From: a virus
IMG/VR virus record: IMGVR_UViG_3300009104_000083
Coordinates: 1-30,039 of that record
Direction: 5' to 3' (one strand)
Length of the DNA: 30,039 nucleotides
In this document: piece by piece, positions 3,146 through 30,039 of the stretch
How the letters are laid out: each line of letters begins with the position of its first letter
Numbering within the stretch: the stretch's first letter is position 1
Translations under genes and position numbers: made by a program
Notes under the pieces: model-generated
Told to the model about the DNA's origin: nothing
The model's database searches: none
The model's input: only the letters and a program-made list of their open reading frames with translations

Positions 3146-5206
3146 TTAGTTATTTAATTGCATCTTTCTGTTTTCAATATTAACTCGTTCCTGTTCAACG
3201 CCTAAACGCTCCTGCTCAATCCCTAGCTTTTGTTCGTCTACAAGCGTATCGGCTATCTTAGCCCTTCTCATAAATTCATCTTTATCCATCTCGCCTTCGG
3301 CTTTCATTGTTGTTGCCAAAGCCTTGAGTCTGTCATTTTCCAGATCAATCGGAATAGCCTTGGTTTCTGTGGCAATCTTACCAGCTCTGGCCTGAGATTC
3401 CGCAGCCTGACCATTAAGCGCATTCGTCTGAGATTGCTGAAATTGTAACTGTGATTGCTGTGCCACCTGTGCCATTTCCTGTGCTTGAGGATCGGGCTGT
3501 GAAGCCTGTTCAATCGCTTGCATTAACTGTTCCCTGTTTTGAAGCTGCATATTATCAACAATAGATTGAACCAGAATCGGATACATTGGAGATTCCTGCC
3601 CCATAGTCTGAAGTAGCTGAACCAACTGCGTTACTTCGTATTCACGGGCAATAATTCCTAGTGTGGAAGTGACTTCAAAAATGTAGTCATTAACTGGGTA
3701 GTTTTCAGGGTCAAACTGCATATAACGACAAGCAGCACTTTTAACAAAAGGAATTAAAAAACTGTCTTGGAAGTTAATAAGAGTTCGCTTATGACGCTTA
3801 ATGATTGCGCCTAAGTTCATGCTTATGCCAGCAGCAGTAGCTTCACCATTGATAGAACCTGGAACACCAGCCGAATCGATTGCACCAGTGGCAGTCTGCA
3901 CCATTCTCTGCAAAGACTCAGCTTGAGCAAAGGTAATCTGTGAAACCTGCCCGAAATTAAAGGGCTGTAAGACTTCTCTTGGATCACCCGTGGTTAATAA
4001 TATCTTTCCTGCCCTGACTTCAGGCCTTGCCCCTCTTGGCATTCTGGTTGCATCCATAGCCACCATAGGCGCATTGGTTAAAGCTAACGCATCAATTCTG
4101 GCCCTTAATTCAGCATCGAGAGCCTTTTGAGAGTTATAGCCCTTTTCGCAAACGCCTCTTCCCCAGAACCTTCCTGGTACTACATCCCAAGGGAAAGCGA
4201 TAACAGGTCTGTCACCCATCATGTAAGGATTTAACTGTGCTTTTAAAATAGTTGTTTTATTAGCGATGACAACACAGGCTTCAACGTAATAGCTTTCTTT
4301 TACTTCAACCTCTACTTCTACCTCTACATCATCTTCAACAATTTCTTCAACACCGTCTTCAATAGTTTCTTCAAGGCTTTCTTCTGTTTCTTCAAAATCT
4401 ATATCTTCGGTATGCTCTTTAATCAAGTAGCGTGGAACAAGCCCATAATATTTTGTTAAACGGACTTTGTTTTCAGGCTCCTGAGATAAGTTTGGATCAG
4501 CTTCTAAAGCATCATCTCCGTAAGTCTGAGCATAGAACTCAACATCTTCATAAACACCCTGCTCCTGCAACAGCTTAATGGTATGCGGAGAAACGTATTC
4601 ATCAATCGCTACACCAATGGAGTCTTCTACGCTCGTTGCAATCGGGTCTATTAGGAAATTCTGAGGAAGAACGGGCTTTAGCTTAACTACCATCCTTTCG
4701 GTTTCATTAACCCCAAAGGCTTGCATAGTCCCATCTGGCATGGGCTGGGTAGCAGGGGCAAGCTCTGTATCCATGTCCATGACAATCTCTGCAATGCCTG
4801 TGCCAAAAACAGCAGCATTAATCAGGCATTCGCCTACCTGCTTACGAATCTTGTGCTTTCTGAAGTCTTCGTTAAGTTTTGCCCTTAGATAAGCTATGTC
4901 CTGACTTTCAGGGTCACGCATATCATCACGAATCGTAAAGAAAGCTCCACGACCAAAGGTTGCTTCTTCTATTTCGGCTACGCTGGACTCGACCGCTTGT
5001 TGTAAGGCAGGACTTACTATCTCGGAGCGTTCACTCGGGCGCGTTTTATTGTCAGGATTAAAATGTCCACGCCAGAGATCATAGTATTCTTCAAACTTCT
5101 CTTCATAGTTGGAATTATAATGTTCGCGCCACTTTTCACATTTAGCGATTACCCAGCTTTCAAGGGATTCGCTTTCATAAATGCTGTCATCGAATAGTTC
5201 GTCCAT
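3146..5206 (-). CDS. portal protein
   Basis: A 686-residue protein at the place expected for the portal, directly after terL. The N-terminus (WREHYNSNYEEKFEEYYDLWRG, split as WREHYNSNYEEK and FEEYYDLWRG, residues about 26-47) and TRPSERSEIVSPALQQAVES (55-74) are typical of P22-like portals. The last 130 residues are Gln-rich and helical, like the barrel region of such portals. An acidic Glu/Val/Asp stretch at residues 267-304 looks like an insertion. The portal forms the DNA entry ring at one vertex and binds the terminase and the tail adaptor. Confidence 0.88.
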   Translation of the reverse strand: MDELFDDSIYESESLESWVIAKCEKWREHYNSNYEEKFEEYYDLWRGHFNPDNKTRPSERSEIVSPALQQAVESSVAEIEEATFGRGAFFTIRDDMRDPESQDIAYLRAKLNEDFRKHKIRKQVGECLINAAVFGTGIAEIVMDMDTELAPATQPMPDGTMQAFGVNETERMVVKLKPVLPQNFLIDPIATSVEDSIGVAIDEYVSPHTIKLLQEQGVYEDVEFYAQTYGDDALEADPNLSQEPENKVRLTKYYGLVPRYLIKEHTEDIDFEETEESLEETIEDGVEEIVEDDVEVEVEVEVKESYYVEACVVIANKTTILKAQLNPYMMGDRPVIAFPWDVVPGRFWGRGVCEKGYNSQKALDAELRARIDALALTNAPMVAMDATRMPRGARPEVRAGKILLTTGDPREVLQPFNFGQVSQITFAQAESLQRMVQTATGAIDSAGVPGSINGEATAAGISMNLGAIIKRHKRTLINFQDSFLIPFVKSAACRYMQFDPENYPVNDYIFEVTSTLGIIAREYEVTQLVQLLQTMGQESPMYPILVQSIVDNMQLQNREQLMQAIEQASQPDPQAQEMAQVAQQSQLQFQQSQTNALNGQAAESQARAGKIATETKAIPIDLENDRLKALATTMKAEGEMDKDEFMRRAKIADTLVDEQKLGIEQERLGVEQERVNIENRKMQLNN

Positions 5207-5207
5207 A

Positions 5208-6452
5208 TCAATACCCTGCTACGGAGTCTAAAAGTTCGTGATCATCGAACTCATATTCTGGTTGGTAAGTTATCTTTTGAAGTTGGTCAATATACGCTAA
5301 TGCGTCAACGCAGTCATCATGCGTCAATATATCGGGGAACTGATAAAGCTCGTCCAAAAAAACATCGTTCCATTCTCCCCGATTTAATTTAATCTTCCCG
5401 TTTTCAAAACGTCCCTGTAAAGCCCACATAACACGATCAGTCTTGCTTTTATTTCCATGCGTTAGTTCTTCGATTTTAAAATACCTGTTGTATTGGCGCA
5501 TAAGGTCTGTCAAAGGGCTAATTACTGCCTGTTTCGCAATGCCCCTTTCAATCCCTACCGAAATAGGCTCATAGTCCCTAACTACCTGGAATATCTTAAT
5601 AGCGGTCTGGTTTAAGTCCCACCGCCCATAAATAATGTCTTTAACCCACCAACCGTGTTCATTTACCTTAACAACCGCTATAGCCGTATTATCAAGTCTG
5701 GTGTTTTTGGTTTTGGGCTTGTTCATTTCAGCAAACCCCGCAAGGTCAGCCGCTACATAATATTCACCACCCATAGGTTCTTTTTCGTCAAAGATTACCC
5801 ATTCTTCCTTAAAGACCTCACTGCCTCTGGCTTCAAAAGAAGCCATGAATTCCTGCCGAAAAGCGTAAGAGGACATAGACTTCTTAGCCCCGTCAATCTC
5901 CGCTTTATCCAGAAGGCTGTTGTCATAGCTCGTATAATGCCAAGACCTGTAACCCTCTGTTTCTTCAGCTTGTTTGTAAAGCTCGTAAAAATGGTTACGC
6001 CCTATAGGTGTTCCAATAAACAAACAACCACCCCTTAAGTCAGTCAGCGCAGGTCTTAATATGGATTCCCACACTTCAGGCTTCATGTCTGCGTATTCGT
6101 CCATAACCAGATAAAACAGGCTTATACCCCGCATAGTCTCTGGCCTGTCAGCCCCTTTGAGCGAGATAATAATATTGTTGGTCAGGGTGATCTGCATATT
6201 GTTGACATGAGAAGCCTTAATCACTTCACTTCCCAGTTCAAGCAGCATATTCCACATAATGTCCCTAGCCTGACCTTGGGTTGGAGCCACATAGAAAATA
6301 TGGCCTTTGTCAGTGCTAAGGGCTTTAACAAGCAGCAAATAAGCCGCTAGGCGGGACTTTCCAGTACGTCTTCCGGCAGCAACAACCTTGAAACGGCTGT
6401 CATCACCCCAGACTTCTTCTTGCCAGGGCAATAAATTTATATCGAGTTTCAA
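5208..6452 (-). CDS. terL: terminase large subunit
   Basis: A 414-residue packaging motor with an N-terminal ATPase and a C-terminal RNase H-fold nuclease. Visible motifs are LLPWQEEV (7-14), a Walker A-type GRRTGKS (27-33), Walker B with LVMDE (D118, E119), the nuclease acidic residues D236 in VAADLAGF and E302 in VGIERG, and DDCVDALAY (379-387). The start is TTG at 6452: an in-frame TAG lies three codons upstream and no ATG occurs before the conserved N-terminal motif. The TTG overlaps the stop of the upstream 40-residue gene (TTGA), which indicates translational coupling. Confidence 0.95.
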   Translation of the reverse strand: MKLDINLLPWQEEVWGDDSRFKVVAAGRRTGKSRLAAYLLLVKALSTDKGHIFYVAPTQGQARDIMWNMLLELGSEVIKASHVNNMQITLTNNIIISLKGADRPETMRGISLFYLVMDEYADMKPEVWESILRPALTDLRGGCLFIGTPIGRNHFYELYKQAEETEGYRSWHYTSYDNSLLDKAEIDGAKKSMSSYAFRQEFMASFEARGSEVFKEEWVIFDEKEPMGGEYYVAADLAGFAEMNKPKTKNTRLDNTAIAVVKVNEHGWWVKDIIYGRWDLNQTAIKIFQVVRDYEPISVGIERGIAKQAVISPLTDLMRQYNRYFKIEELTHGNKSKTDRVMWALQGRFENGKIKLNRGEWNDVFLDELYQFPDILTHDDCVDALAYIDQLQKITYQPEYEFDDHELLDSVAGY

Positions 6453-6579: not shown

Positions 6580-6759
6580 TCAATTTAATCTAAGATCACT
6601 AATAGACCACTCGCCCGTTTTGATAAAGGTTTCCCCTACATCAACCTGACGGAATTCTCTGGTCGATATGAATTTTCCTTCGTTATCCCTGTATTGGTAC
6701 AAAGTAATAGAACCGTCTTCATTATGGGTTTCACGGTAGGTGGTAACATCATCCTTCAT
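6580..6759 (-). CDS. hypothetical protein (59 aa)
   Basis: An open frame of 59 codons from ATG 6759, beginning MKDDVTTYRETHNEDGS and continuing ITLYQYRDNEGKF. It is hydrophilic with alternating polar and hydrophobic residues that suggest beta strands. It overlaps the end of the nuclease gene by 11 bases and lies 8 bases before the 40-residue basic gene, so it fills the operon without gaps. No family is recognised. The tight packing and lack of any competing frame support it as a real gene. Confidence 0.55.
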   Translation of the reverse strand: MKDDVTTYRETHNEDGSITLYQYRDNEGKFISTREFRQVDVGETFIKTGEWSISDLRLN

Positions 6760-7147
6760 GCTTTAACGCCTTTCGGTTAGCCAGATGTGCTTTTTGAATT
6801 TCCTTCTTGTTCTGTCCGGTATAGGGAACCGCTAACTTTTCCCTGATAAGGATTTTCGTAATAAATCCCTTTCCCGTTTTAAACTCACCCAAGTACCTTC
6901 CAAATTTTCCTTTCTTCGTTGTTCTAAGCGGGTAGGACTTGCCGAGCTGTAAATGTTCCTGAACGCATTTCTTTGCAAGTAATCCATGCGCTTTTTCCTG
7001 TTTATCTCTTGTGCGAGATTCGGGAGTATCAATACCAGCAAGACGTATACGCTGCTTATGAAGCCAGCAATCAAAACCAAGATTAATGTCGACATCTATC
7101 GTATCCCCATCAATAACCCTGACTATCGTAGCTTCGTACTCATACAT
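6749..7147 (-). CDS. thermonuclease-fold (SNase-like) nuclease
   Basis: A 132-residue protein of the staphylococcal nuclease family. Key residues are all present and even keep similar numbering to the model enzyme: VIDGDT (11-16), RIRLAGIDTPE (33-43, with R35, D40 and E43) and FGRYLG (82-87, with R84). It should be an active calcium-dependent phosphodiesterase on DNA or RNA. No signal peptide is seen, so it acts inside the cell. Its place between the terminase subunit genes suggests a job in packaging or in host DNA degradation, but that is inference. Confidence 0.85.
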   Translation of the reverse strand: MYEYEATIVRVIDGDTIDVDINLGFDCWLHKQRIRLAGIDTPESRTRDKQEKAHGLLAKKCVQEHLQLGKSYPLRTTKKGKFGRYLGEFKTGKGFITKILIREKLAVPYTGQNKKEIQKAHLANRKALKHEG

Positions 7148-7156
7148 AACAAATAC

Positions 7157-7582
7157 CTACACATCATCTTCCTCAATAGCCTGGACTTCTACTACCTCCT
7201 TCTCCTGAACCAACGAATTTACGTTAATTTGAATCTGGGGCTTCTCGGCCGTTCTAAGCTTGTTTTCGCTCCACCCTGCCTGAGTCTTGAGGAAAAAGAT
7301 TGCGGCCGTTGTATCGCCTCCTATGGCTTTGTTGACCAGATTAGACGCTACTTCCGCGACCTTATCACTCTTGTGTTTTTTATACAGTGCAGCAACCTCT
7401 TCATCACGTTCCAGTATTTTAAAGAAAGTCCTGCGGGGAATCTTCAGGGAATCAGCAATCATATCAGTCGTTAAATAAGGAGCCATCCAAGTCAGCTTCT
7501 CCTTTTGCTCTTCAGTAAGCACAATCATCGGCCTACCGCCTAAATTCTTTTCAGGGGCTTTGTCAGGTACTAGGTCAGTCAT
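7157..7582 (-). CDS. terS: terminase small subunit-like DNA-binding protein
   Basis: A 141-residue protein that leads the late operon. It has a helix-turn-helix segment TTDMIADSLKIPRRTFFKIL (about 38-57) and a helical stretch ending in TTAAIFFLKTQAGW (about 91-104), both typical of phage small terminase subunits that recognise the packaging site and form a ring. The acidic tail EEDDV may contact the large subunit. It begins 15 bases from a perfect parS sequence. An AGGATGTT sequence before ATG 7582 can serve as ribosome site. Confidence 0.75.
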   Translation of the reverse strand: MTDLVPDKAPEKNLGGRPMIVLTEEQKEKLTWMAPYLTTDMIADSLKIPRRTFFKILERDEEVAALYKKHKSDKVAEVASNLVNKAIGGDTTAAIFFLKTQAGWSENKLRTAEKPQIQINVNSLVQEKEVVEVQAIEEDDV

Positions 7583-7596
7583 GACATAACATCCTA

Positions 7597-7612
7597 TGTT
7601 CCACGTGAAACA
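7597..7612. promoter_or_regulatory. parS: perfect chromosomal-type parS (ParB-binding) sequence
   Basis: The 16 bases TGTTCCACGTGAAACA equal the consensus parS to which chromosomal ParB proteins of most bacterial phyla bind (TGTTNCACGTGAAACA). It is an imperfect palindrome centred on CACGTG. It lies 14 bases upstream of the terS start in the divergent control region. A given 16-mer is expected about 1e-5 times in 30 kb on both strands. I saw no second CACGTG-centred copy and no ParA or ParB gene in the window, so the protein that binds it would come from the host or from outside the window. Confidence 0.85.
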
Positions 7613-7641
7613 ATATAATCCGAACTTTTAGAACTTTTCGA
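7612..7641 (-). promoter_or_regulatory. candidate late promoter facing terS, abutting parS
   Basis: On the minus strand TCGAAA (7641-7636) and TATATT (7617-7612) are separated by 18 bases, giving 4/6 and 5/6 matches to the sigma70 boxes. The start of transcription would fall inside the parS sequence, about 20-25 bases before ATG 7582. Two GAACT motifs overlap the -35 box and spacer. The match is moderate; other AT-rich hexamers nearby could serve instead. Confidence 0.4.
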
Positions 7642-7834
7642 CATATCTTGCGTTTTCCGAATAATACAAACCAGAAACCCGAACTACAAGCAGTTCACAG
7701 TTCCGGTTTTGTATGTGGGTGGGAACTATATAAATTAAGTAGGCCCGCGCCCCCTCCCCGTCCTCTTTTTCCGACCCCCTCAACATTAATGAACCTAAAC
7801 TGTTGGTTCTAGTTTGTTGGGGAGTGCTTGAACT
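7622..7834. repeat. GAACT motif array in the divergent control region
   Basis: The pentamer GAACT or its complement occurs seven times: 7622, 7631, 7681, 7692 (reverse), 7699 (reverse), 7723 and 7830. Less than one would be expected in the 391-base gap. Two form the direct repeat GAACTTTTAGAACTTTT, and two pairs lie in an 11-bp inverted repeat (7675-7685 with 7699-7709, one mismatch). The spacing between the early and late promoters suggests operator sites. The rest of the gap (7740-7870) holds a C-rich stretch and a purine-rich tract and shows no gene I trust. Confidence 0.45.
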
Positions 7835-7908
7835 GACTGCAGAGAAAAGAAAGAGAGAGAGAAGTACCCAAAACAAACAAATGATTTATTAGAAAACGTA
7901 AATAATTA

Positions 7909-7937
7909 TTGACCTGATGAAATGTTTAAACTAGAAT
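7909..7937 (+). promoter_or_regulatory. sigma70-type early promoter
   Basis: TTGACC (7909-7914), a 17-base spacer and TAGAAT (7932-7937) match 5/6 and 5/6 of the consensus. It lies 37 bases before the first early gene, so the leader is short. The spacer contains a GTTTAAAC palindrome (7924-7931). It is the best promoter in the window and indicates that host RNA polymerase starts the early operon. Confidence 0.8.
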
Positions 7938-7973
7938 CACTCTATCACTAAATAAAAGAGGATACTTATACAG

Positions 7974-8171
7974 ATGAAGCAATATCAAAGACACTTAGAA
8001 ATGGCCGACAAACTGGCAGCAGTTGGAAACTACGGCTTAGCCATTACCAACATTGAAGCCCTCATCAGATCAGCGAGAAGCGATAAAGCGAAAGCATACT
8101 TGCAATCTAAGCTTTTAGATATAGACCTTAAGCGGCTTATGATTATCGAACTGTTAGACGCCTCCAACTAA
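7974..8171 (+). CDS. hypothetical early protein (65 aa)
   Basis: First gene after the early promoter. The 65 residues are predicted to be all helix, with MADKLAAVGNYGLAITNIEA (10-29) and a heptad-like Leu/Ile pattern that recalls a single tetratricopeptide-type hairpin. No family is recognised. The GAGG sequence about 12 bases upstream is a weak ribosome site. First-in-operon position is typical of host-takeover genes, but nothing in the sequence shows the target. Confidence 0.55.
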   Translation: MKQYQRHLEMADKLAAVGNYGLAITNIEALIRSARSDKAKAYLQSKLLDIDLKRLMIIELLDASN

Positions 8172-8206: not shown

Positions 8207-8467
8207 ATGAGCAGGCAATACCCAATCTACAACAAAGTCACCGCTTGTATCTATAAGTCAGATAAAAGCTACGGAGTGCGGGAAACTGGCGAGGTGGAAG
8301 TGTTAGTCGGTACATCCAGCAAGAACTCGCACCACTTCGTTAAGCACTCAACAACCCACAGAATCCATGACAACGGCGACCGTGAGTATAGATTTTATGT
8401 TGACGGCCAAGTGATCAAGACAGCAATCCTAAAGAAAGGCGAGTCTAAATTATCGATAACTAATTAG
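8207..8467 (+). CDS. conserved phage early protein, unknown role (86 aa)
   Basis: It begins MSRQYPIYNKVTACIYKSDK and has SKNSHHFVKHSTTHR (about 46-60) and DREYRFYVDGQ, a pattern I recall from a family of small phage proteins of unknown function. The fold is probably mostly beta. A strong AAGGAG ribosome site precedes ATG 8207, stronger than that of the preceding gene. A GC hairpin follows the stop. It appears soluble, with no catalytic motif visible. Confidence 0.65.
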   Translation: MSRQYPIYNKVTACIYKSDKSYGVRETGEVEVLVGTSSKNSHHFVKHSTTHRIHDNGDREYRFYVDGQVIKTAILKKGESKLSITN

Positions 8468-8544: not shown

Positions 8545-8964
8545 ATGAGCGCACAAGCAATCGAGACATACAGAAGCAAAAAACATTTAGGGCTCAGGGA
8601 GCAGGTTCAGACTTTAGTAGAGAAAGACCACAACCTTATTAGTTTAAATCCCGAAGTAATTGGGGTATTAAATTTAACTTACACAATGCTGAACAAATCT
8701 ATTATCGACGCAAATGAAAGTATCCGTCGACTGGCTATGCTTTTCCATGTTGATTACGACGAATTAAAAGCAGGTGAAAGACGTAAGATACCTGCTCTGT
8801 TTGCAACTGGAACAAAAAGCACGGTCACTTTTTATAAAACCAAACGAGGTGATAGGCGTATTTCTATCCAAAAAATCAACAAGGAAGCTGAGGTTGGAGA
8901 CACTCTGAACCTCACCTATGCCCACTCCGCAGATGGAAGTCTAATTCTGGTTGTGAGGGTGTAA
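8545..8964 (+). CDS. hypothetical early protein (139 aa)
   Basis: A 139-residue soluble protein with a helical first half (KKHLGLREQVQTLVEKDHN, residues about 11-29; NESIRRLAMLFHVDYDELK, about 58-76) and a beta-type second half (KSTVTFYKTKRGDRRISIQK). The first half could hold a helix-turn-helix, with LAMLFHVDYDELKAG like the second half of such a domain, but this is weak. A strong AAGGAG site precedes the start. No family is recognised. Confidence 0.55.
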   Translation: MSAQAIETYRSKKHLGLREQVQTLVEKDHNLISLNPEVIGVLNLTYTMLNKSIIDANESIRRLAMLFHVDYDELKAGERRKIPALFATGTKSTVTFYKTKRGDRRISIQKINKEAEVGDTLNLTYAHSADGSLILVVRV

Positions 8965-11968: not shown

Positions 11969-12427
11969 ATGAAAGGCTTAAATAAAGTATTGCTTATAGG
12001 AAATCTGGGGGCTGATCCAGATATTAGATACACCCAAGACAACGCGCCAGTGGCAAACTTCACTGTAGCAACCAATGAATATAGCAGCAAGAAGGAGCAG
12101 ATAACCGAATGGCATAAGTGCGTAGCGTTTGGTAGAGCTGGAGACAAGAACAATTTGGTCGAGAGATATATCAAACCTTATCTAAAGAAAGGCAACTCGG
12201 TTTACATTGAGGGCAGTCTCCAAACCACAAGTTACACAGACAGAGATGGAGTTAAGAAATATTCCACTCAAATAGTCGTGCGGGAGCTGCAAGGCTTATC
12301 CTCCTCAGCTCAGGGTGACTCTCAAGAAGCGCCGCCGAAACCCGCCGAAACCCGCCAAGAGCCGCCACAAGAAGCGGCCCAACAATTTAATCCAAGTGAG
12401 GACTTTGATGATGACATACCCTTCTGA
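11969..12427 (+). CDS. ssb: single-stranded DNA-binding protein
   Basis: A 152-residue SSB with the OB-fold start LNKVLLIGNLGADPDIRYTQ (4-23), ANFTVATNEY (29-38), EWHKCVAFGRAGD and VYIEGSLQTTSYTDRDG (76-92). The Pro/Gln-rich linker ends in the acidic tip DDDIPF (147-152), which in bacterial SSBs docks host replication and repair proteins. Keeping the tip suggests use with host enzymes. AAGGAG precedes ATG 11969. The repeat of GCCGCCGAAACCC in the linker region is a simple duplication. Confidence 0.95.
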   Translation: MKGLNKVLLIGNLGADPDIRYTQDNAPVANFTVATNEYSSKKEQITEWHKCVAFGRAGDKNNLVERYIKPYLKKGNSVYIEGSLQTTSYTDRDGVKKYSTQIVVRELQGLSSSAQGDSQEAPPKPAETRQEPPQEAAQQFNPSEDFDDDIPF

Positions 12428-12644
12428 CATACACCTGGGAAGGTGTATTAATATCGCGCATTCCATTAAGGACATTAAAAAAACTTTCATGGCTAAAGCC
12501 ATAGGGGTTACTGTTCAAAGGTACAGCAACATACTTAAAGACCCGAACCCAAGAATCCAGATTGCGCTTCAAGTATGCAATGTTTTGGGGATTAGTTTGG
12601 AGGAGCTGATTAGCTATGGTAACAAGCACGATAGTAACAAATGA
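12408..12644 (+). CDS. Cro/C1-type helix-turn-helix regulator
   Basis: A 78-residue protein with an XRE-type domain: KKTFMAKAIGVTVQRYSNIL (about 24-43) supplies the first helices with the recognition helix, and QIALQVCNVLGISLEELISY (51-70) the rest. The start at ATG 12408 has GAGGA six bases upstream; a longer in-frame version to 12315 would overlap ssb heavily. It overlaps ssb by 20 bases and the next gene by 29. It could bind the GAACT array or the iterons; the target is unknown. Confidence 0.65.
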   Translation: MMTYPSDIHLGRCINIAHSIKDIKKTFMAKAIGVTVQRYSNILKDPNPRIQIALQVCNVLGISLEELISYGNKHDSNK

Positions 12645-22154: not shown

Positions 22155-24065
22155 TTATCCTATTTGCATCATTTTTGCCAGCTCAATCAAAGAAGAGCCT
22201 GGAGTTCTTTGCCTATATCTTTCTTCTGTTTTGGCTAAAAAGTTAGAGGCTTTAGGAAATAAGGGCTGCCTTCCCTGTCCTAACACGGGCATTTGGGCAA
22301 GCTCAAAATCAGTAACACGAACCCCAGGGACATCCATTTGTATTGCCTGTCCTCTATCCATGTTTACATTAAACCCTACTGCTCCAGCCTGACCTCTTTC
22401 ACCTTGAGCGCCTCTTTCACCTTGAGTGCCAGCAGCACCTGTAGCGCCAGTTAAACCTCTTTCTCCAGTAGCACCTGTAGCTCCAGCTACTCCAGCGGCT
22501 CCAGCAGCACCTCTTTCCCCTTTATCACCTTTATCACCTTTATCACCTTTATCACCTTTGCCATTGCCATTACCATTACCGTTACCGTTGCCGTTGCCGT
22601 TTAGAACAACTCCATTTCCATTACTTCCATTTCCATTACTTCCATTTCCATTACTTCCATTTCCGTTACTTCCATTACCGTTGTCACCATTTCCATTACT
22701 TCCATTTCCATTACTTCCGTTCCCATTACTTCCGTTATTTGTATTATTGCTACCGCCTCCAGTTGTAGTAGTACCTCCGGTGGTGGTGGTAGTACCTCCT
22801 CCTGTAGTAGTGCCTCCCCCAGTGGTAGTAGTGCCTCCAGTGGTAGTAGTGCCTCCGCCGGTGGTAGCGGCAAGGTTTGGGTCGATCCCCCCTGCAACAG
22901 CATCTATAATGCCTGTAGTGTCAGCAGCAGGATTAGCCGTGGCATTAGCAGCAGCATTAGCAGCAGCATTAGCAGCAGCATTAGCAGCAACAGAGGTATC
23001 AACAAACCCACCTTCAATTTCACCGCTTGCAATTTTGTTTATTTGGCTCCAAAAATTTTCCCAGACAGGAGCCATAATTGCGTTGTAATCTGATTCCTCA
23101 GAAGAATCAGCAGAATGCTCTAACTGCCAACCACCTATGTTAAGTCCCTCACCAGCACGATCAATAGTGGGCCTATAAAGCACAACTGTATCGCCATCGT
23201 TAAAAGTGGTTCCTTCCGTACCTCCTACATCAGAGACACTAACAATTTCTGTTGCATCTCCCATTCTATTTCCGTCATTATCAAATGGCTGATAACCAAA
23301 AGTATCTGTGTCCTTATCATAAATCCAAGAATAACTAGCAGGTGTTGAGACTGCTGTGCTGGCACTTCCGGTTGAACCATCTCCACTACTAGCTGTTGCA
23401 GTTGAGTCAGTCAAAATACCGCCACCAGAGTCTTCTGTTGATGAAGATAAAATGTCCGTAGCAGATGTTTCTGAACTATCAGCCCCTTCTAAAGCGCTCT
23501 CAAGCGCACTAACAAGGCCACCCCCGCTAACAGAAATATTATTATCTACATTTAAAAACCCCGAATCCCCATAGCGAACACCGTATCTTGGATCAGAACT
23601 ATTAATTTCATTGCTAAAAGCATCGTCTATTCCAAACTGCCCCCATGTCTCTTGCAGGGCGTTTAAACGCTGCTCATCAGTCAAGTTGTAGTCATAAGCA
23701 GTTTTACTGATTAGCTCTGCTGTGTAGGTAGCTTTTTCTTGATTAGAAAGGCTAGGGTCGTTATTAAGAATATCTACAGCTTCTGCCAACTCGTCCTTAG
23801 TCAATATTTTATTTCTTAGATCATTAAATCTTTTTCTTTCTGGTGCGTAGGCAAGCTGATCTCCATGAGGCAGCATATCTTTGTACTTCTGCCACCAGTT
23901 TTCTCCCATGACAAGGCCGCCGTAACCTGGAGCATGAGGTTGTTCTCCAGTCCATTCAGCCCCAAAAATTCCCAATTCTTGAGCAGCATCTGGCGCAATG
24001 GATGCAGGCAAAACAGAACCCAACAGCCCACCACCACTAATTTTATTAAACAAATTTTCTGGCAT
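22155..24065 (-). CDS. collagen-like repeat virion-type protein (636 aa)
   Basis: The first 210 residues look globular (GGLVMGENWWQKYKDMLPHG, about 49-68; ILTKDELAEAVDILNNDPSL, about 86-105). A Ser/Gly/Asp-rich middle follows, with TYSWIYDKDTDTFGYQPF-like strand segments. Then come, in order, an Ala-Asn repeat (about 358-385), a Gly/Thr tract (about 390-440), an Asn-Gly-Ser tract (about 442-500) and about 20 Gly-X-Y triplets with GDKGDKGDKG and GATGERGLTGATG (about 500-560). The C-terminal 75 residues are again complex. Gly-X-Y triplets form collagen-like trimeric rods in phage fibres. It lies between the lysozyme and the adaptor genes. Function inferred as fibre or virion rod. Confidence 0.6.
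   Translation of the reverse strand: MPENLFNKISGGGLLGSVLPASIAPDAAQELGIFGAEWTGEQPHAPGYGGLVMGENWWQKYKDMLPHGDQLAYAPERKRFNDLRNKILTKDELAEAVDILNNDPSLSNQEKATYTAELISKTAYDYNLTDEQRLNALQETWGQFGIDDAFSNEINSSDPRYGVRYGDSGFLNVDNNISVSGGGLVSALESALEGADSSETSATDILSSSTEDSGGGILTDSTATASSGDGSTGSASTAVSTPASYSWIYDKDTDTFGYQPFDNDGNRMGDATEIVSVSDVGGTEGTTFNDGDTVVLYRPTIDRAGEGLNIGGWQLEHSADSSEESDYNAIMAPVWENFWSQINKIASGEIEGGFVDTSVAANAAANAAANAAANATANPAADTTGIIDAVAGGIDPNLAATTGGGTTTTGGTTTTGGGTTTGGGTTTTTGGTTTTGGGSNNTNNGSNGNGSNGNGSNGNGDNGNGSNGNGSNGNGSNGNGSNGNGVVLNGNGNGNGNGNGNGKGDKGDKGDKGDKGERGAAGAAGVAGATGATGERGLTGATGAAGTQGERGAQGERGQAGAVGFNVNMDRGQAIQMDVPGVRVTDFELAQMPVLGQGRQPLFPKASNFLAKTEERYRQRTPGSSLIELAKMMQIG
22395..22990 (-). repeat. 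stacked coding microsatellites (Gly-X-Y, Asn-Gly, Gly-Thr, Ala-Asn)
   Basis: Several kinds of short in-frame repeats follow each other: 9-base units of the type GGTGATAAA (about 22515-22560), 12- to 18-base units of the type GGAAATGGAAGTAAT (about 22615-22735), Gly/Thr units with ACCACTGGAGG (about 22755-22865) and 12-base Ala-Asn units with GCTGCTAATGCT (about 22935-22990). All unit lengths are multiples of three, so slippage changes protein length but not the frame. Confidence 0.85.
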
Positions 24066-24076
24066 AACTGTTATCT

Positions 24077-24526
24077 CTAAACGTAAGTGTTGGTCTTAAT
24101 CATATCGGTAACTTCTAATGCCCGACCCTTTACTTGCCTAGCCCAAAGGCTGTCCAAAAATTCTGCTGCTGCTGCGTCATAACTGCCTTTTTCCATATGA
24201 GCCAACGCCTTAACAAACTTGGAGAAACGAACTCTACCTAGATTGAAGTGCATATTGATAATCCCGTCACGCCTTGCACCGTCTTCCAGGTCATTAAACC
24301 AATCATATTCTGTGCTTAATTCTTGAATGGTTCTAACAATGTCATTAGAAAGCATGAAGTCAATTTCTTCCATGCTTAACCCAATGCCTTGATGCTGGCC
24401 GTCAGGGTGTATATTGCGCCCTGCGCCTATATGCCAAGTACCGTAGGCATCTTTGTAGGCACGCGTCTTAACACCTTCATGGCGCTTGAGTTGTTCTATG
24501 AGTTTTTCCATACCGTTAATTTCCAT
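24077..24526 (-). CDS. endolysin, GH24 (T4-type) lysozyme with Thr-to-His change
   Basis: A 149-residue lysozyme that would cut the glycan backbone of murein. RHEGVKTRAYKDAYGTWHIG (15-34) aligns with the T4 lysozyme active site: Glu17 and Asp26 match Glu11 and Asp20, but His32 stands at the place of catalytic Thr26. The C-terminal part (GARRDGIINMHFNLGRVRFS, about 95-114; SLWARQVKGRALEVTDMI) matches the family. No signal or anchor segment is seen, so export needs a holin. ATG 24526 overlaps the holin gene by 11 bases; ATG 24511, with GGAAA upstream, is an equally good start that gives a T4-like N-terminus. Confidence 0.85.
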   Translation of the reverse strand: MEINGMEKLIEQLKRHEGVKTRAYKDAYGTWHIGAGRNIHPDGQHQGIGLSMEEIDFMLSNDIVRTIQELSTEYDWFNDLEDGARRDGIINMHFNLGRVRFSKFVKALAHMEKGSYDAAAAEFLDSLWARQVKGRALEVTDMIKTNTYV

Positions 24527-24983
24527 TGTGGCTAGACCCGAAGTAGAAACTGGCGATACCGCTAACCAAGCCCCCAAGATAACCGAGAACAAGGTTGACA
24601 ATGGCGTCATCATTGCTTTCAGGCGCTTGCAGCGTAACCATAAATATATACGCCAAAAACCCAAGCATTGCCATAACTGCAATGACTTTAGGCGTAGGGT
24701 CTTTCGCAAATTTATCTCTTGCGTCCTGCCTATCCTCTGTCTCAAGCCTGAACCCCTCAATATTCGCAGTGAGCTTTTTTATCTCTAATTCTGCGTCTTG
24801 CAAGATTTCTGCTTTTTCTGGCTCTCGTTCTACAACTTCTTCTATTTGTTCTATGCTAGAGGTTTCATCCATTCCTAGCTTTTTAGCTGCTAATTTAACT
24901 GCCACTCCAGCGATAGGATTACTGCTGGCTACTGTTTTCACCAGCGTAGGAGCTAATGCTCCCAGAATCCCTTTAAGTTTCAT
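24516..24983 (-). CDS. holin of the GTA_holin_3TM type
   Basis: A 155-residue protein with a helical, charged N-terminal half (EQIEEVVEREPEKAEILQDA, about 46-65), then VIAVMAMLGFLAYIFMVTL (100-118) and DAIVNLVLGYLGGLVSGIAS (126-145) as membrane spans, ending FYFGSS, a common end in this holin family. A weakly hydrophobic N-terminal helix (AGVAVKLAAKKLG) may be the third span. The lysozyme gene overlaps its end, which marks the pair as the lysis core. It would open the inner membrane to release the lysozyme. Confidence 0.75.
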   Translation of the reverse strand: MKLKGILGALAPTLVKTVASSNPIAGVAVKLAAKKLGMDETSSIEQIEEVVEREPEKAEILQDAELEIKKLTANIEGFRLETEDRQDARDKFAKDPTPKVIAVMAMLGFLAYIFMVTLQAPESNDDAIVNLVLGYLGGLVSGIASFYFGSSHNGN

Positions 24984-25012: not shown

Positions 25013-25252
25013 TCAAGATTCCGAATCACTTTTGTCGGTTGCATCAGCGTTTTCCTCCGCAACAATCTCGTCAATAGTGTCGCAAGCATCCGGTATCGCT
25101 ATACCTGTGGTAACTTCAGTAGCAACTCTGCCCACTGCACGGATTCCTTTGTAAAGTTCAGAGCAGTATAATTGCTTGTTAGCGATCATCTCTTCACTTA
25201 CAGAACACCCCGATAATAAAAAAACAAATAATACTAAATATATTTTACGCAC
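25013..25252 (-). CDS. small lipoprotein, possible outer-membrane spanin
   Basis: A 79-residue protein from GTG 25252 with a lipoprotein signal: MRKIYLVLFVFLLSGC, Cys16 being the lipidation site after the LSG lipobox. The mature part of about 64 residues has two more cysteines (residues about 29 and 57) and an acidic end (EENADATDKSDSES). Ser at +2 predicts outer-membrane sorting. The site between holin and lipase suits an o-spanin, but mature o-spanins are often Pro-rich, which this is not. The start overlaps the lipase stop by 8 bases. Confidence 0.65.
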   Translation of the reverse strand: MRKIYLVLFVFLLSGCSVSEEMIANKQLYCSELYKGIRAVGRVATEVTTGIAIPDACDTIDEIVAEENADATDKSDSES

Positions 25253-25979
25253 CTTTTAATCCTTCTTTTTTCTTTGATTTTTCCCAATCAGTAAGAAAAA
25301 CATCTAATGACTTCCTGTAACCCTTCATAAAATGGTCACTCAGCATTTCGTCTTTTTCAGACAAAAAGTCACTTTTCTTAAAATCTTTATCGGGGTTTAT
25401 CCTGCAAGCACCATTATTTGCAAAATAAAGCTGATCTTGGCTGCATGACGCGCCATATAAGAGCCTTGGAATGCGAGCCACTATATCACTACCATGCACT
25501 ACAGAAACTTGGTTATCGAGCTGTAAGGGACGCTTAAAGCCTTTAAAAAAGGTATTTGGCTTCCCAAAGGTAACTAGGTTGAGATTTGAGTGCTTTTTAT
25601 GGACTTTCGCTGCCGCCAGCTCTGCTAAAGCTCCTCCTAGGCTATGACCACAAAATAGAGTTCTCTTCTTATAATCGAGTTTTTCTTCAATTTCTTTCCA
25701 TATTGACTTTATAGCTATTCGGAATCCTCCATGACAGAGCCTTCCAGCCCAAGGAAGAGGAACAACAAATGCGTCAGTTAAGGCATCTTGCCCTTCTGCT
25801 GTTCCTCTGAACGCTATAATATCTATGGTTTTCCTTCTGACAAAGAAGGCAGTTGTACTTGTTAGTTTAGATTCTATCTTTTCGGCATCTTTGTTCTGGT
25901 CTTTATAGGCTTTAATTGCCCATCCGCAGGCAACATTTAATAAAACGGGATCGACATTCATGTTATTACTCGCTGTCAT
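25245..25979 (-). CDS. class 3 lipase-like alpha/beta hydrolase
   Basis: A 244-residue hydrolase with all hallmarks of the Lipase_3 family: IIAFRGT (54-60, oxyanion region), CHGGF (82-86), GHSLGGA (111-117, nucleophile Ser113), GSDIVARIP (163-171, Asp165) and SDHFMKGY (214-221, His216). It should cleave ester bonds of lipids. No signal peptide or membrane span is seen, so it would reach the envelope only after the holin opens, or be carried in the virion. It sits in the lysis cassette, overlapping the flanking genes by 14 and 8 bases. Confidence 0.82.
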   Translation of the reverse strand: MTASNNMNVDPVLLNVACGWAIKAYKDQNKDAEKIESKLTSTTAFFVRRKTIDIIAFRGTAEGQDALTDAFVVPLPWAGRLCHGGFRIAIKSIWKEIEEKLDYKKRTLFCGHSLGGALAELAAAKVHKKHSNLNLVTFGKPNTFFKGFKRPLQLDNQVSVVHGSDIVARIPRLLYGASCSQDQLYFANNGACRINPDKDFKKSDFLSEKDEMLSDHFMKGYRKSLDVFLTDWEKSKKKEGLKGA

Positions 25980-26514: not shown

Positions 26515-28927
26515 ATTGCTGTCCTACTAAATCCTGGTATGTCTGTGCGCCTTGCCCTTGTAACGCCCTGACATTGCCGTCTACTGGCACATTTCCACCG
26601 TATATTTCTCTGTCCTGATACCATTGTTGCTGGTCAACTAAATTGATGTTATAGGCTTCCATTCCCTGAACTCTGCCCATTAAAAGAATTGTTAGGCTTT
26701 GATCCTCAAATCCACCGGAGTCCTGTATGCCCTCCAGTTGAGCTTCTTGAGCCTCTTCTATCTCTGCATCGCTCATGCTCTCAATGGCATTTTCAGCCCT
26801 GCGAACCGTTTGTTGCTCTTCTACACTCGGCGGTGCAACGTCAAACTGCCCGAAATCCGGTAGCTGGTTAGAAAGAAACTGCCCTATAGTCTGCCCTGTT
26901 GCTATGGCATCGTTAAAGTCCTGCTCAAACTGCATCTCTGTTACTGATGCACTTAGCTCCTGCATGACTTCAACCTCTTCAGAAGGTGTCTCTTCGGCGC
27001 TTTGAGTACCTATCTGATTAAAATTCTGTACTGGGCCTGTGGAAACAATGCCCTGAATCACCTCTATTTCAGGCTCAAAGCCTCCTGTATCACCAAATAC
27101 ATCAGTGAAGCCTCCGGTATCCATGCTCTGCTGTATGTCGGTCTGACCGAGTTGAGCAAGCTGCATAGAGCCTGAATCAAACACAATTCCTACTTCTGCC
27201 AGTGCCGCTGTCTGAGTTTCGTCAATAGCTTCACTTGCAAAACTAATGTCCGAAAAAGCAGTTTCAGTGGTAGGAGTGAGAGAAAACGTACCTTGCGAAA
27301 AAGCCTGAGTTGAAATAGTAGGCATAACAGAGGTTTCAGCTACGATACCTAATGCCAATTTCGTAATGTCCACTCCTCGCCTTTCTGGTTCTGCTACCTC
27401 CAGGATTGCCCTCTCTTCGGCAATCACCGCTTCAGGCTCTGCCACTTCTTCCTCCACCTCTAGTATAGACTCTTCGGCTATCTGAACCTGCGATTCTTCT
27501 ACAAGCCGCTGCTCTTCAACTCTTTCTTCTTCTATCCGCTGCTCTTCCTGAGCTTCAGATTCTTCTACAATTATCTCTTCAAAAACCTCTTCCGGTTCTT
27601 CAAAAACTTCCTCGACTACAGCTACTTCTTCAAAGGCTTCTACAATTGTTTCCTCAAAAACCTCCTCAAAAACCTCTTCCTCAAAAGGTTCCCCCTCAAT
27701 TACTGGGAGATCAGAAAATTCATCCATTCCATCATCATCAGAAAAGCCAGAATCATCCCCAGAAAGTAGATTGTCATTAACCATAACAACAGCAGCACCC
27801 ATCCAAGTATCTTCTTGATCCGATCCATCTAAGCTATACCCATTAGAGCCATCATCATAGGTGTCATCGCCGGAGTCGTACTCCACTACATCAATTTCTA
27901 CAACGTAGTAATCAGTGAGGTCATCATCGTCCACAAAATAATAGTCAGAGACATCATCGCCATCCACAACGTCCGTGTAGTCATCAGCCACCGTTGCTAC
28001 AAAGGTTGCCTCCCAGTACCCATCACAAGAAGGGTCATAGGTGGCATCTAATCCACATTGTTGCGCCAGATAGGCTGCCGCATAACCAGTACACTCTGAG
28101 TTGTACAACGCACTGATTCCACACTGTTGGGCTAGATAAGCAGCCGCATAACCACTACAGGCAGAGTCGTATAACGCGCTAATGCCGCATTGTTGGGCAA
28201 GGTAGGCTGCTGCATAACCGGAGCATGACGTACTGTATAGCGGATTAGCATTACACAGCTCCGTTAGAGAAGCGGAATATAGCGACCCACCCCCTTCCAG
28301 CACATTTCCGCTGAAACTTGCATCAAACGAATCCCAGTTATTATGTCCTCCAGTGCCATCATCAAAATACCGGAAAGTCTTATGCACAGAGCTGGTGTGC
28401 TGTTCTCCGATTAAGACATCATGTTTAATAATATCCAGCGCACCATAGCGGTACTCGTAAGTGTCATTCGCCCATAAAATAGCCTCAAAGTTATTGCTGC
28501 CTCGGTGATTTGGATAGGAATACTCTTTCATCCCATACCAACCGAACACAACGTAATCATCAAAAGACTTAAACAGCATCTTACTGCTGTTGTTTCGTAT
28601 TAAATCAGTCCAAAAGGGATACAGTGTTTCATCCCTGTACGGCAACGGCTGCGGAGTGTAATCACTACAGTTAAGCCCTGAAAAGTTGACACAGCCATTA
28701 GTGGACATTTTTGCCTTTCTATAAGTATTACCCCAGAGGTCAAAGTCAAATCCAAAATCTGGACTCCAGCCTGAGATGCAATCATCACAAGCGTTCATGT
28801 TGGTAGTCCCAGACATTCCCGACAGGTTTATAAGCGCCTGAGAGCCTTCATAGATATACGCAGTTGGATCGCTCGTGCTTGCGCCATAGGCAGTAGAGCA
28901 AAACAGTAAGGCTACTAACCACCTCAT
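26504..28927 (-). CDS. secreted Cys-repeat and acidic-domain protein (807 aa)
   Basis: The protein starts with a signal-peptide-like segment (MRWLVALLFCSTAYGASTS). Residues about 20-220 look like a nidogen-type or similar extracellular beta domain, with YRKAKMSTNGCVNFSGLNCS and YPFWTDLIR. Residues about 225-301 are four 22-residue repeats of the form CGISALYDSACSGYAAAYLA, each with two cysteines. A very acidic Asp/Glu region follows (about 305-520), then a Gln/Thr-rich C-terminal part. Start ATG 28927 has AGGAGA eight bases upstream and a one-base overlap with the previous stop; a TTG two codons earlier is less likely. Related repeat proteins occur, as I recall, in marine phages. An adhesin or host-surface role is inferred. 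Confidence 0.6.
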   Translation of the reverse strand: MRWLVALLFCSTAYGASTSDPTAYIYEGSQALINLSGMSGTTNMNACDDCISGWSPDFGFDFDLWGNTYRKAKMSTNGCVNFSGLNCSDYTPQPLPYRDETLYPFWTDLIRNNSSKMLFKSFDDYVVFGWYGMKEYSYPNHRGSNNFEAILWANDTYEYRYGALDIIKHDVLIGEQHTSSVHKTFRYFDDGTGGHNNWDSFDASFSGNVLEGGGSLYSASLTELCNANPLYSTSCSGYAAAYLAQQCGISALYDSACSGYAAAYLAQQCGISALYNSECTGYAAAYLAQQCGLDATYDPSCDGYWEATFVATVADDYTDVVDGDDVSDYYFVDDDDLTDYYVVEIDVVEYDSGDDTYDDGSNGYSLDGSDQEDTWMGAAVVMVNDNLLSGDDSGFSDDDGMDEFSDLPVIEGEPFEEEVFEEVFEETIVEAFEEVAVVEEVFEEPEEVFEEIIVEESEAQEEQRIEEERVEEQRLVEESQVQIAEESILEVEEEVAEPEAVIAEERAILEVAEPERRGVDITKLALGIVAETSVMPTISTQAFSQGTFSLTPTTETAFSDISFASEAIDETQTAALAEVGIVFDSGSMQLAQLGQTDIQQSMDTGGFTDVFGDTGGFEPEIEVIQGIVSTGPVQNFNQIGTQSAEETPSEEVEVMQELSASVTEMQFEQDFNDAIATGQTIGQFLSNQLPDFGQFDVAPPSVEEQQTVRRAENAIESMSDAEIEEAQEAQLEGIQDSGGFEDQSLTILLMGRVQGMEAYNINLVDQQQWYQDREIYGGNVPVDGNVRALQGQGAQTYQDLVGQQYDR
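28025..28255 (-). repeat. 66-bp Cys-containing coding repeats
   Basis: About three and a half tandem units of 66 bases encode 22-residue repeats with CxxxxLYxSxCxGYAAAYLAQQ. The first and last units are more divergent (CNANPLYSTSC; CGLDATYDPSCDGYW), which is usual for repeat arrays that grow by duplication in the middle. Even cysteine numbers suggest disulfides, consistent with export. Confidence 0.85.
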
Positions 28928-30039
28928 CAGCAACGTCTCCTGTGGGGCTGACAGTTGCGCCTGTTGCTTGACCTGCTTTCATTTTCCTTTACCTCTTCTT
29001 CTGCTTCTGCTTCGTCCCATGCAATTTGAGCCTCTGCGCCAATCAATCCCTCGTAAGGACAGGGAGTGCCTGCCATACGCATAGCGTCAAAAACACGCTG
29101 GTCTTGGCACATCAGGCTCACAGCAGCCACACGCATCCCCATATCGTAAAGCGTCTTGCCTAGTTTAATCCTTTCACAGTTTTCATCGGTAATAGACCTG
29201 CCACCAGAGAAGCCAAATATCTGGCTTTGCACTGCTCCTGAGATGCCAGTAGTACACAAATCCTGCGAGTAGCTAGACCCGATAGACGGAGCTATCGCGC
29301 TGGGTGGTGGTGACTCAATCCTCTGCGTCACCCTTTGCGTTGAGGTGCTTTGGCTGGTGTTGTTGTTTGTATTCTGATTGATGTTGTTTGCAGAACTGCT
29401 TATCTCACTGGTGCTTTGGGAAACATCCTGCGAACTGGTGAAATTCGTATTCGTGTTATTGCTCGTTGAATTTTGCGTTACGTCACTGGTGTTCTGATTA
29501 ACATTCGTTGAATTACTGGTGTTGTTTATCGTGGATACATTAGTGCTGGTGGAGTTATTTGTATTGTTTGATGTTGATACGCTGCTGGATGTTGAGTTAT
29601 TCGTATTTGTGTTGTTTGACGTATTCAGATTGGTGTTCTGATTCGTATTTACTGATGTATTGCTCGTAGTCGTATTATTAATATTTGAGTTATTAGCAGT
29701 GACCGTAGTTGCGTTTTGGTTAATGTTCAGGCTGGTATTATTGTTGGTATTGGTATTGACGTTATTTGAACTGCTGCTCGTCGTAACATTAGACGTGCTG
29801 TTATTGGTATTCAGATTCGTGTTCTGATTTACCGATGAACCAGTGTAATTAGTGGTGTTCTGGTTGGTATTTTGATTGACGTTTGTTGAAGTCGAGGTAT
29901 TCGTATTTGTCGATACGTTAGTATTCTGATTTACATTCTGGGATGAGCTGGTTGTCGTGTTGACGTTGGTATTGGTCGTCGTCGCCGTCGTCGTAGACGT
30001 AATATCCGTATCGTTATCCGTATTCACATTGGTCGTAGT
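28927..30039 (-). CDS. Asn/Thr/Ser-rich repeat protein with conserved C-terminus, 5' partial
   Basis: The frame is open to the right window edge; the GTG at 30027 is not a convincing start because the same Thr/Asn pattern continues upstream. About 230 residues are almost only Asn, Thr, Ser, Gln and Val (NVNQNTNVSTNTNTS). A complex C-terminal domain follows with RIESPPPSAIAPSIGSSYSQ, then DLCTTGISGAVQSQIFGFSG and RVAAVSLMCQDQRVFDAMRM, with several cysteines. Its stop overlaps the ATG of the secreted Cys-repeat gene, so the two are probably made together. A surface fibre or adhesin is likely, but the function is unknown. Confidence 0.65.
   Translation of the reverse strand, partial: TTTNVNTDNDTDITSTTTATTTNTNVNTTTSSSQNVNQNTNVSTNTNTSTSTNVNQNTNQNTTNYTGSSVNQNTNLNTNNSTSNVTTSSSSNNVNTNTNNNTSLNINQNATTVTANNSNINNTTTSNTSVNTNQNTNLNTSNNTNTNNSTSSSVSTSNNTNNSTSTNVSTINNTSNSTNVNQNTSDVTQNSTSNNTNTNFTSSQDVSQSTSEISSSANNINQNTNNNTSQSTSTQRVTQRIESPPPSAIAPSIGSSYSQDLCTTGISGAVQSQIFGFSGGRSITDENCERIKLGKTLYDMGMRVAAVSLMCQDQRVFDAMRMAGTPCPYEGLIGAEAQIAWDEAEAEEEVKENESRSSNRRNCQPHRRRC

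Follow-up and report, generated by a model that had tools for sequence, protein, structure and literature searches.

A chromosomal-type parS site at the head of a phage packaging operon: a possible operator for host ParB

The DNA analyzed here, referred to below as the window, is the whole 30,039-nt stretch of IMG/VR virus record IMGVR_UViG_3300009104_000083. Its left part contains a packaging operon read leftward, on the − strand, that begins with the gene for the terminase small subunit (TerS; 7157–7582; phrog_309, E 9e-11) and continues with those for an endonuclease (6749–7147; phrog_452, E 9e-33), the terminase large subunit (TerL; 5208–6452; phrog_2, E 6e-46), the portal protein (3146–5206; phrog_1216, E 4e-40) and, further on, the major head protein (856–1806; phrog_267, E 2e-47). 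Rightward, on the + strand, come three small early ORFs: e1, known from ORF reading (7974–8171; 65 aa, function unassigned), e2 (8207–8467; 86 aa, with relatives in 42 other viral contigs) and e3 (8545–8964; 139 aa, with relatives in many viral contigs). Beyond these lie genes for SSB, a NinB/Orf-like protein, a NinG/Rap nuclease and a Cro/CI-type helix-turn-helix (HTH) protein (12315–12644, + strand; PF01381, 31 bits), a possible phage regulator whose true start may lie downstream of the one listed. The two operons diverge from a control region of 391 bp (7583–7973), bounded by genes identified by homology. Automatic gene calls had placed it in a ‘convergent’ setting, but this was due to spurious ORFs.

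Within the control region, at 7597–7612 on the + strand, lies the sequence TGTTCCACGTGAAACA, which matches the 16-bp consensus of chromosomal-type parS without a single mismatch, just as the first-pass annotation of this DNA had claimed. The sequence is a palindrome with two mismatched positions, and the second match reported by the motif scan is this same palindrome read on the − strand; no other parS within three mismatches was found in the window. With an order-2 Markov model based on the window, 4.6e-6 occurrences of this string are expected, or 9.3e-6 counting both orientations; the four common parS variants together give 1.9e-5. The figure of about 1e-5 put forward earlier thus holds for a single window. 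Since the motif was chosen from many possible motifs and windows, however, we took the viral collection as background. Chromosomal parS sites lie near the origin, usually in several copies; here there is a single site, in a closed phage genome of ~37 kb.

The site is set tightly against the packaging operon. A spacer of 14 nt (7583–7596) separates it from the start codon of TerS; read directly on the − strand this spacer is TAGGATGTTATGTC, and it includes a possible Shine-Dalgarno sequence, AGGATG. The TerL start is 1,144 bp away. On the other side, also on the − strand, is a weak, putative sigma-70-like promoter, TCGAAA-18-TATATT (7612–7641), which agrees with 9 of 12 consensus positions and is a consensus match and nothing further. 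Its −10-like box, TATATT, abuts parS and overlaps it by one base, so that the predicted transcription start and the leader of the packaging operon would fall within or under parS. Searches for known RNA families and tRNAs returned none, nor was an intrinsic terminator found; an RNA hairpin in the leader was considered and rejected, its folding being no better than that of shuffled sequences (z −0.15).

A second contig, G001 (37,078 bp; pieces L355 and L356), matches the window at 100% identity wherever the two share sequence. Both of its ends map to window positions 24471–24589, an overlap of 119 bp, from which it follows that the genome closes at ~36,959 bp, although the overlap may be no more than the word length of the assembler. 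The window lacks 6.9 kb of this genome, a part that codes for tail-type and RCC1-repeat proteins. Three RCC1-repeat proteins occupy the tail-gene position in L355:5659–12629, together with a 590-aa protein that, by reading only, resembles a sulfotransferase fused to another domain. Elsewhere the phage carries a class 3 lipase gene (25245–25979; PF01764) near a lysozyme gene, and a similar lipase-like gene occurs in phages L212 and L214; a Gly-rich, collagen-like repeat protein with matches to tail-fibre families (22155–24065); and a protein of 391 aa, possibly fibrous and part of the tail or surface, which begins like a signal peptide and contains a long repeat rich in Asn, Thr and Ser (28927–30039; full gene L355:4457–5632).

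What the phage lacks bears directly on how the site might be used. Family searches of the window and the closed 37-kb contig found neither a ParB domain (PF02195; ParB_N) nor a tyrosine integrase, and no ParA was recognized among the PHROG results or the ORFs inspected. The first-pass annotation, which had reported no parA, parB or integrase, is thus borne out for ParB and, as regards the tyrosine type, for the integrase. Its suggestion that host ParB would be the natural ligand gains support from a perfect parS in a genome that, even when closed, has no ParB domain. As to that host, phages of Psychrobacter, Moraxella and Vibrio have relatives of TerS, and the Nin-type proteins would fit a gammaproteobacterial host. 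Genome matches to TerL were discarded as a guide: they led to contigs in four MAGs (L365–L368) assigned to Sphingobacteriales, Verrucomicrobiales, Planctomycetaceae and Crocinitomicaceae, which belong to unrelated phyla, and these are most likely phage contigs that were binned wrongly.

Relatives of the phage are of limited help with the site. Among TerL relatives (71–81% identity), no site within two mismatches was present in 80 loci, and none of 35 records had one within one mismatch; the TerS genes and control regions of these relatives are different from the window's, and tblastn with the window's TerS and early genes found no matches in them because those genes have been replaced there. 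TerS relatives (61–66% identity) have no parS at that place, nor, by eye, can their leaders be aligned with that of the window. For the control region as a whole no alignable relative was found: a single contig shares the flank, and it represents this very phage (100% identity), while the nearest other relative, L209 (83–93% nucleotide identity), ends inside terS, short of the 7597–7612 site. Two TerS relatives, G007 and G008, have one-mismatch sites at matching places inside the Zn-ribbon gene that follows portal, and these may be a coding coincidence. Exact parS sites are present elsewhere in the genomes of relatives that share e3 (L212/L213 and L281) or e2 (G084/G085), and six of 16 records picked as relatives have a site within one mismatch, compared with none for the reversed-pattern control. 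Since the exact sites of these relatives lie at other positions, parS seems to have been gained and lost among them rather than kept in synteny.

Scans of the viral collection returned at least 120 loci for parS and at least 120 for its palindromic variant. Of two control 16-mers, the reversed one returned a single locus and the core-swapped one 58, so some parS matches must be due to chance, and numbers alone are no proof. The positions of the matches differ, however. Among the matches listed, 33 of 120 parS sites are intergenic against 2 of 58 for the core-swapped control (Fisher p 4e-5), as are 52 of 116 sites of the palindromic variant (Fisher p 1e-9), which makes 85 of 236 for both scans pooled against the same 2 of 58. 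Sites inside genes, among the matches listed, tend to fall in the first fifth of the gene (29/83 and 28/60, or 57/143 together, versus 5/56 for the control), and gene-start proximity persists among the matches listed when the largest lineage is left out (83/206 versus 9/58, p 2e-4). From the intergenic fractions we estimate that roughly 70–90% of the intergenic parS matches are not due to chance, and because many phages show this excess, a real function is likely. Clear phage genes are present at nine of ten loci checked, the remaining one, L008, being less clear, and a ParB domain is encoded in four of 50 records with intergenic parS and absent from the other 46. Cultured phages near L069, L464 and L489 yielded nothing informative.

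Some phage-type contigs carry parS in clusters, with up to 11 sites in L045 and five each in L429 and L456, and L008 and L069 have tandem or closely spaced copies; the L069 record encodes a ParB domain, and none is shown in those of L008, L045 and L429. In three related phage loci (L012:1059, L026:88 and L066:4435) an exact parS lies inside a conserved 47-aa ORF, where it encodes VPRET. The VPRET codons are identical in all three while neighbouring codons differ, which is suggestive only, the loci having been gathered by exact parS.

Placement upstream of the terminase, as in the window, was seen in the first set of matches and predicted beforehand for the independent palindromic variant. Among the matches listed, parS lies no more than 3 kb upstream of TerL in 28 of 120 cases, the palindromic variant in 32 of 116 and the control in 3 of 58. 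The 63 loci thus gathered form 26 TerL clusters, one of which comprises 30 loci: a phage lineage with parS upstream of TerL, often 17–135 bp from its start. Flanking sequence varies across this lineage and parS is present, a retention biased by the gathering of loci by exact parS, and the distances from parS to TerL and to promoter-like boxes vary. Without this lineage, the terminase link is weak (31/206 versus 3/58, p=0.03) and does not exceed the intergenic background (p=0.20). A general rule that phage parS lies upstream of terminase was accordingly set aside; it was repeated with the palindromic variant, but rests mainly on one lineage. Pelagibacter phage HTVC027P, which belongs to the cultured relatives of the lineage, carries CGTTTCACGTGAAACA, a site with one mismatch, in a gap close to terS; four other cultured relatives have no site. 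Besides parS, a recurrent motif, AGGGGCCCC or AGGGGTCCC, occurs just before the TerL start codon in a lineage with a TerL of ~487 aa (L044, L431, L441, L494, L503, L507, L530 and relatives) that is related to Pelagibacter phages HTVC027P and HTVC023P.

ParB is known to act on transcription. In Pseudomonas aeruginosa, ParB at the intergenic sites parS3 and parS4 represses adjacent promoters (PMC5521831), and in IncC plasmids parS overlaps the −10 box of PparA, which ParB represses (PMC10954446). By analogy with these cases, we suggest that TGTTCCACGTGAAACA at 7597–7612 is a genuine host-type parS and the operator through which host ParB keeps the packaging operon in check, a reading to which we give a probability of about 0.42. 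On entry, ParB-CTP of the host, which we assume to possess a matching ParB, whatever its identity, would load at parS, which lies across the leader of the TerS–TerL–portal–head operon and probably across its transcription start as well. By occupying parS and sliding into the flanking DNA it would keep the operon off. As the phage DNA replicated, copies of parS would come to exceed the limited pool of ParB, occupancy per genome would drop, and the operon would be released: a late-gene switch that senses copy number. The first step, binding of the site by host ParB, is likely; repression and its relief, which lean on the precedents above, are about half as probable as binding. Extended further, this repressor would be the host ParB clamp in many ParB-less phages with host-type parS at operon starts, a generalization that strikes us as rather unlikely; the window phage and the 30-locus lineage would be its terminase-acting examples.

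Unintegrated phage DNA, or that of a slow infection, might instead be moved by host ParABS through parS, much as a plasmid might use the centromere system of another replicon. The closed genome without integrase and the presence of an HTH regulator would fit, and SGI1 is stabilized in precisely this manner by stolen parS sites, which bind plasmid ParB (PMC10954446). The first-pass annotation had found maintenance without integration attractive because no integrase was seen. That argument has been dropped: tyrosine integrases are present in four of 50 records with intergenic parS, and among 50 control records none passed the cut-off and one gave a weak match, so the integrase argues neither for nor against carriage. 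Nor does any other observation speak specifically for carriage without integration: no replication-and-partition cassette was seen, nor any sign of lysogeny beyond the one HTH protein, and partition has no need of a site at the start of an operon. That the site lies in the leader of the packaging operon, and that parS elsewhere gathers at gene starts, speaks for control of transcription rather than for passive partitioning, which we regard as unlikely.

Unlikely too, in our view, is that the site arose by chance, or that it is the operator of some phage or host protein and merely resembles parS. The core-swapped control does reach 58 loci by chance, most relatives are without the site, and the phage encodes an HTH protein of its own; yet just 9e-6 occurrences are expected in the window, and an intergenic place, rare among control matches (2/58), is common among those of parS.

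In many phages packaging starts close to terS, which the site adjoins, and ParB, with the SMC that it loads, might organize or position the phage DNA near that start. The 30-locus lineage and the site of HTVC027P are placed as this would have it, but most phages with parS have it elsewhere and we know of no link between ParB and terminase; a role in packaging is very unlikely. That many phage genomes act as decoys, titrating ParB and SMC from host origins and disturbing chromosome segregation, is to be expected of any parS-bearing DNA that replicates and recalls the destabilization of IncC plasmids by extra parS copies (PMC10954446) and the arrays of 5–11 sites in some phages, but it is a highly improbable purpose for the single site of the window phage, since it needs no special place, yet phage parS prefers gene starts.

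If host ParB does load on phage genomes via such sites, a core protein of chromosome segregation doubles as a regulator or carrier of phages, phage timing is tied to ParB dosage and SMC loading, and host-ParB use across phages acquires a simple sequence marker. The idea is directly testable in any laboratory host that has ParABS and tolerates deletion of parB. Searches of open-access texts turned up ParB-like proteins of phages and phage-borne ParABS cassettes, but no account of host-type parS in ParB-less phages; the 2007 parS survey of Livny and colleagues lay outside these texts, and priority is therefore uncertain.

Known systems resemble the window phage in some respects and differ in others. 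The site has the same 16-bp sequence as the chromosomal parS bound by ParB/Spo0J, but is present in one copy, on a phage, with no parAB or origin cluster nearby. Phages P1 and N15 and cyanophage Mic1 (PMC7156551) also carry a parS-type site, but they encode ParA and ParB along with a parS of their own, whereas the window phage has a host-type site and no ParB domain. Like the window's site, parS3 and parS4 of P. aeruginosa (PMC5521831) are intergenic; they lie beside promoters, where the window has a putative one, a 9-of-12 consensus match. They belong, however, to chromosomal genes near oriC and their repressive effect was measured, where ours is inferred. Then there is SGI1, whose parS-like sites hijack the ParABS of IncC plasmids (PMC10954446): like the window phage, whose closed genome also pairs a parS with no ParB of its own, it is a ParB-less mobile element; its parS copies lie beside promoters, that of the phage beside a putative one. 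SGI1 mimics a plasmid-type parS, for which binding has been shown; the phage has the chromosomal type.
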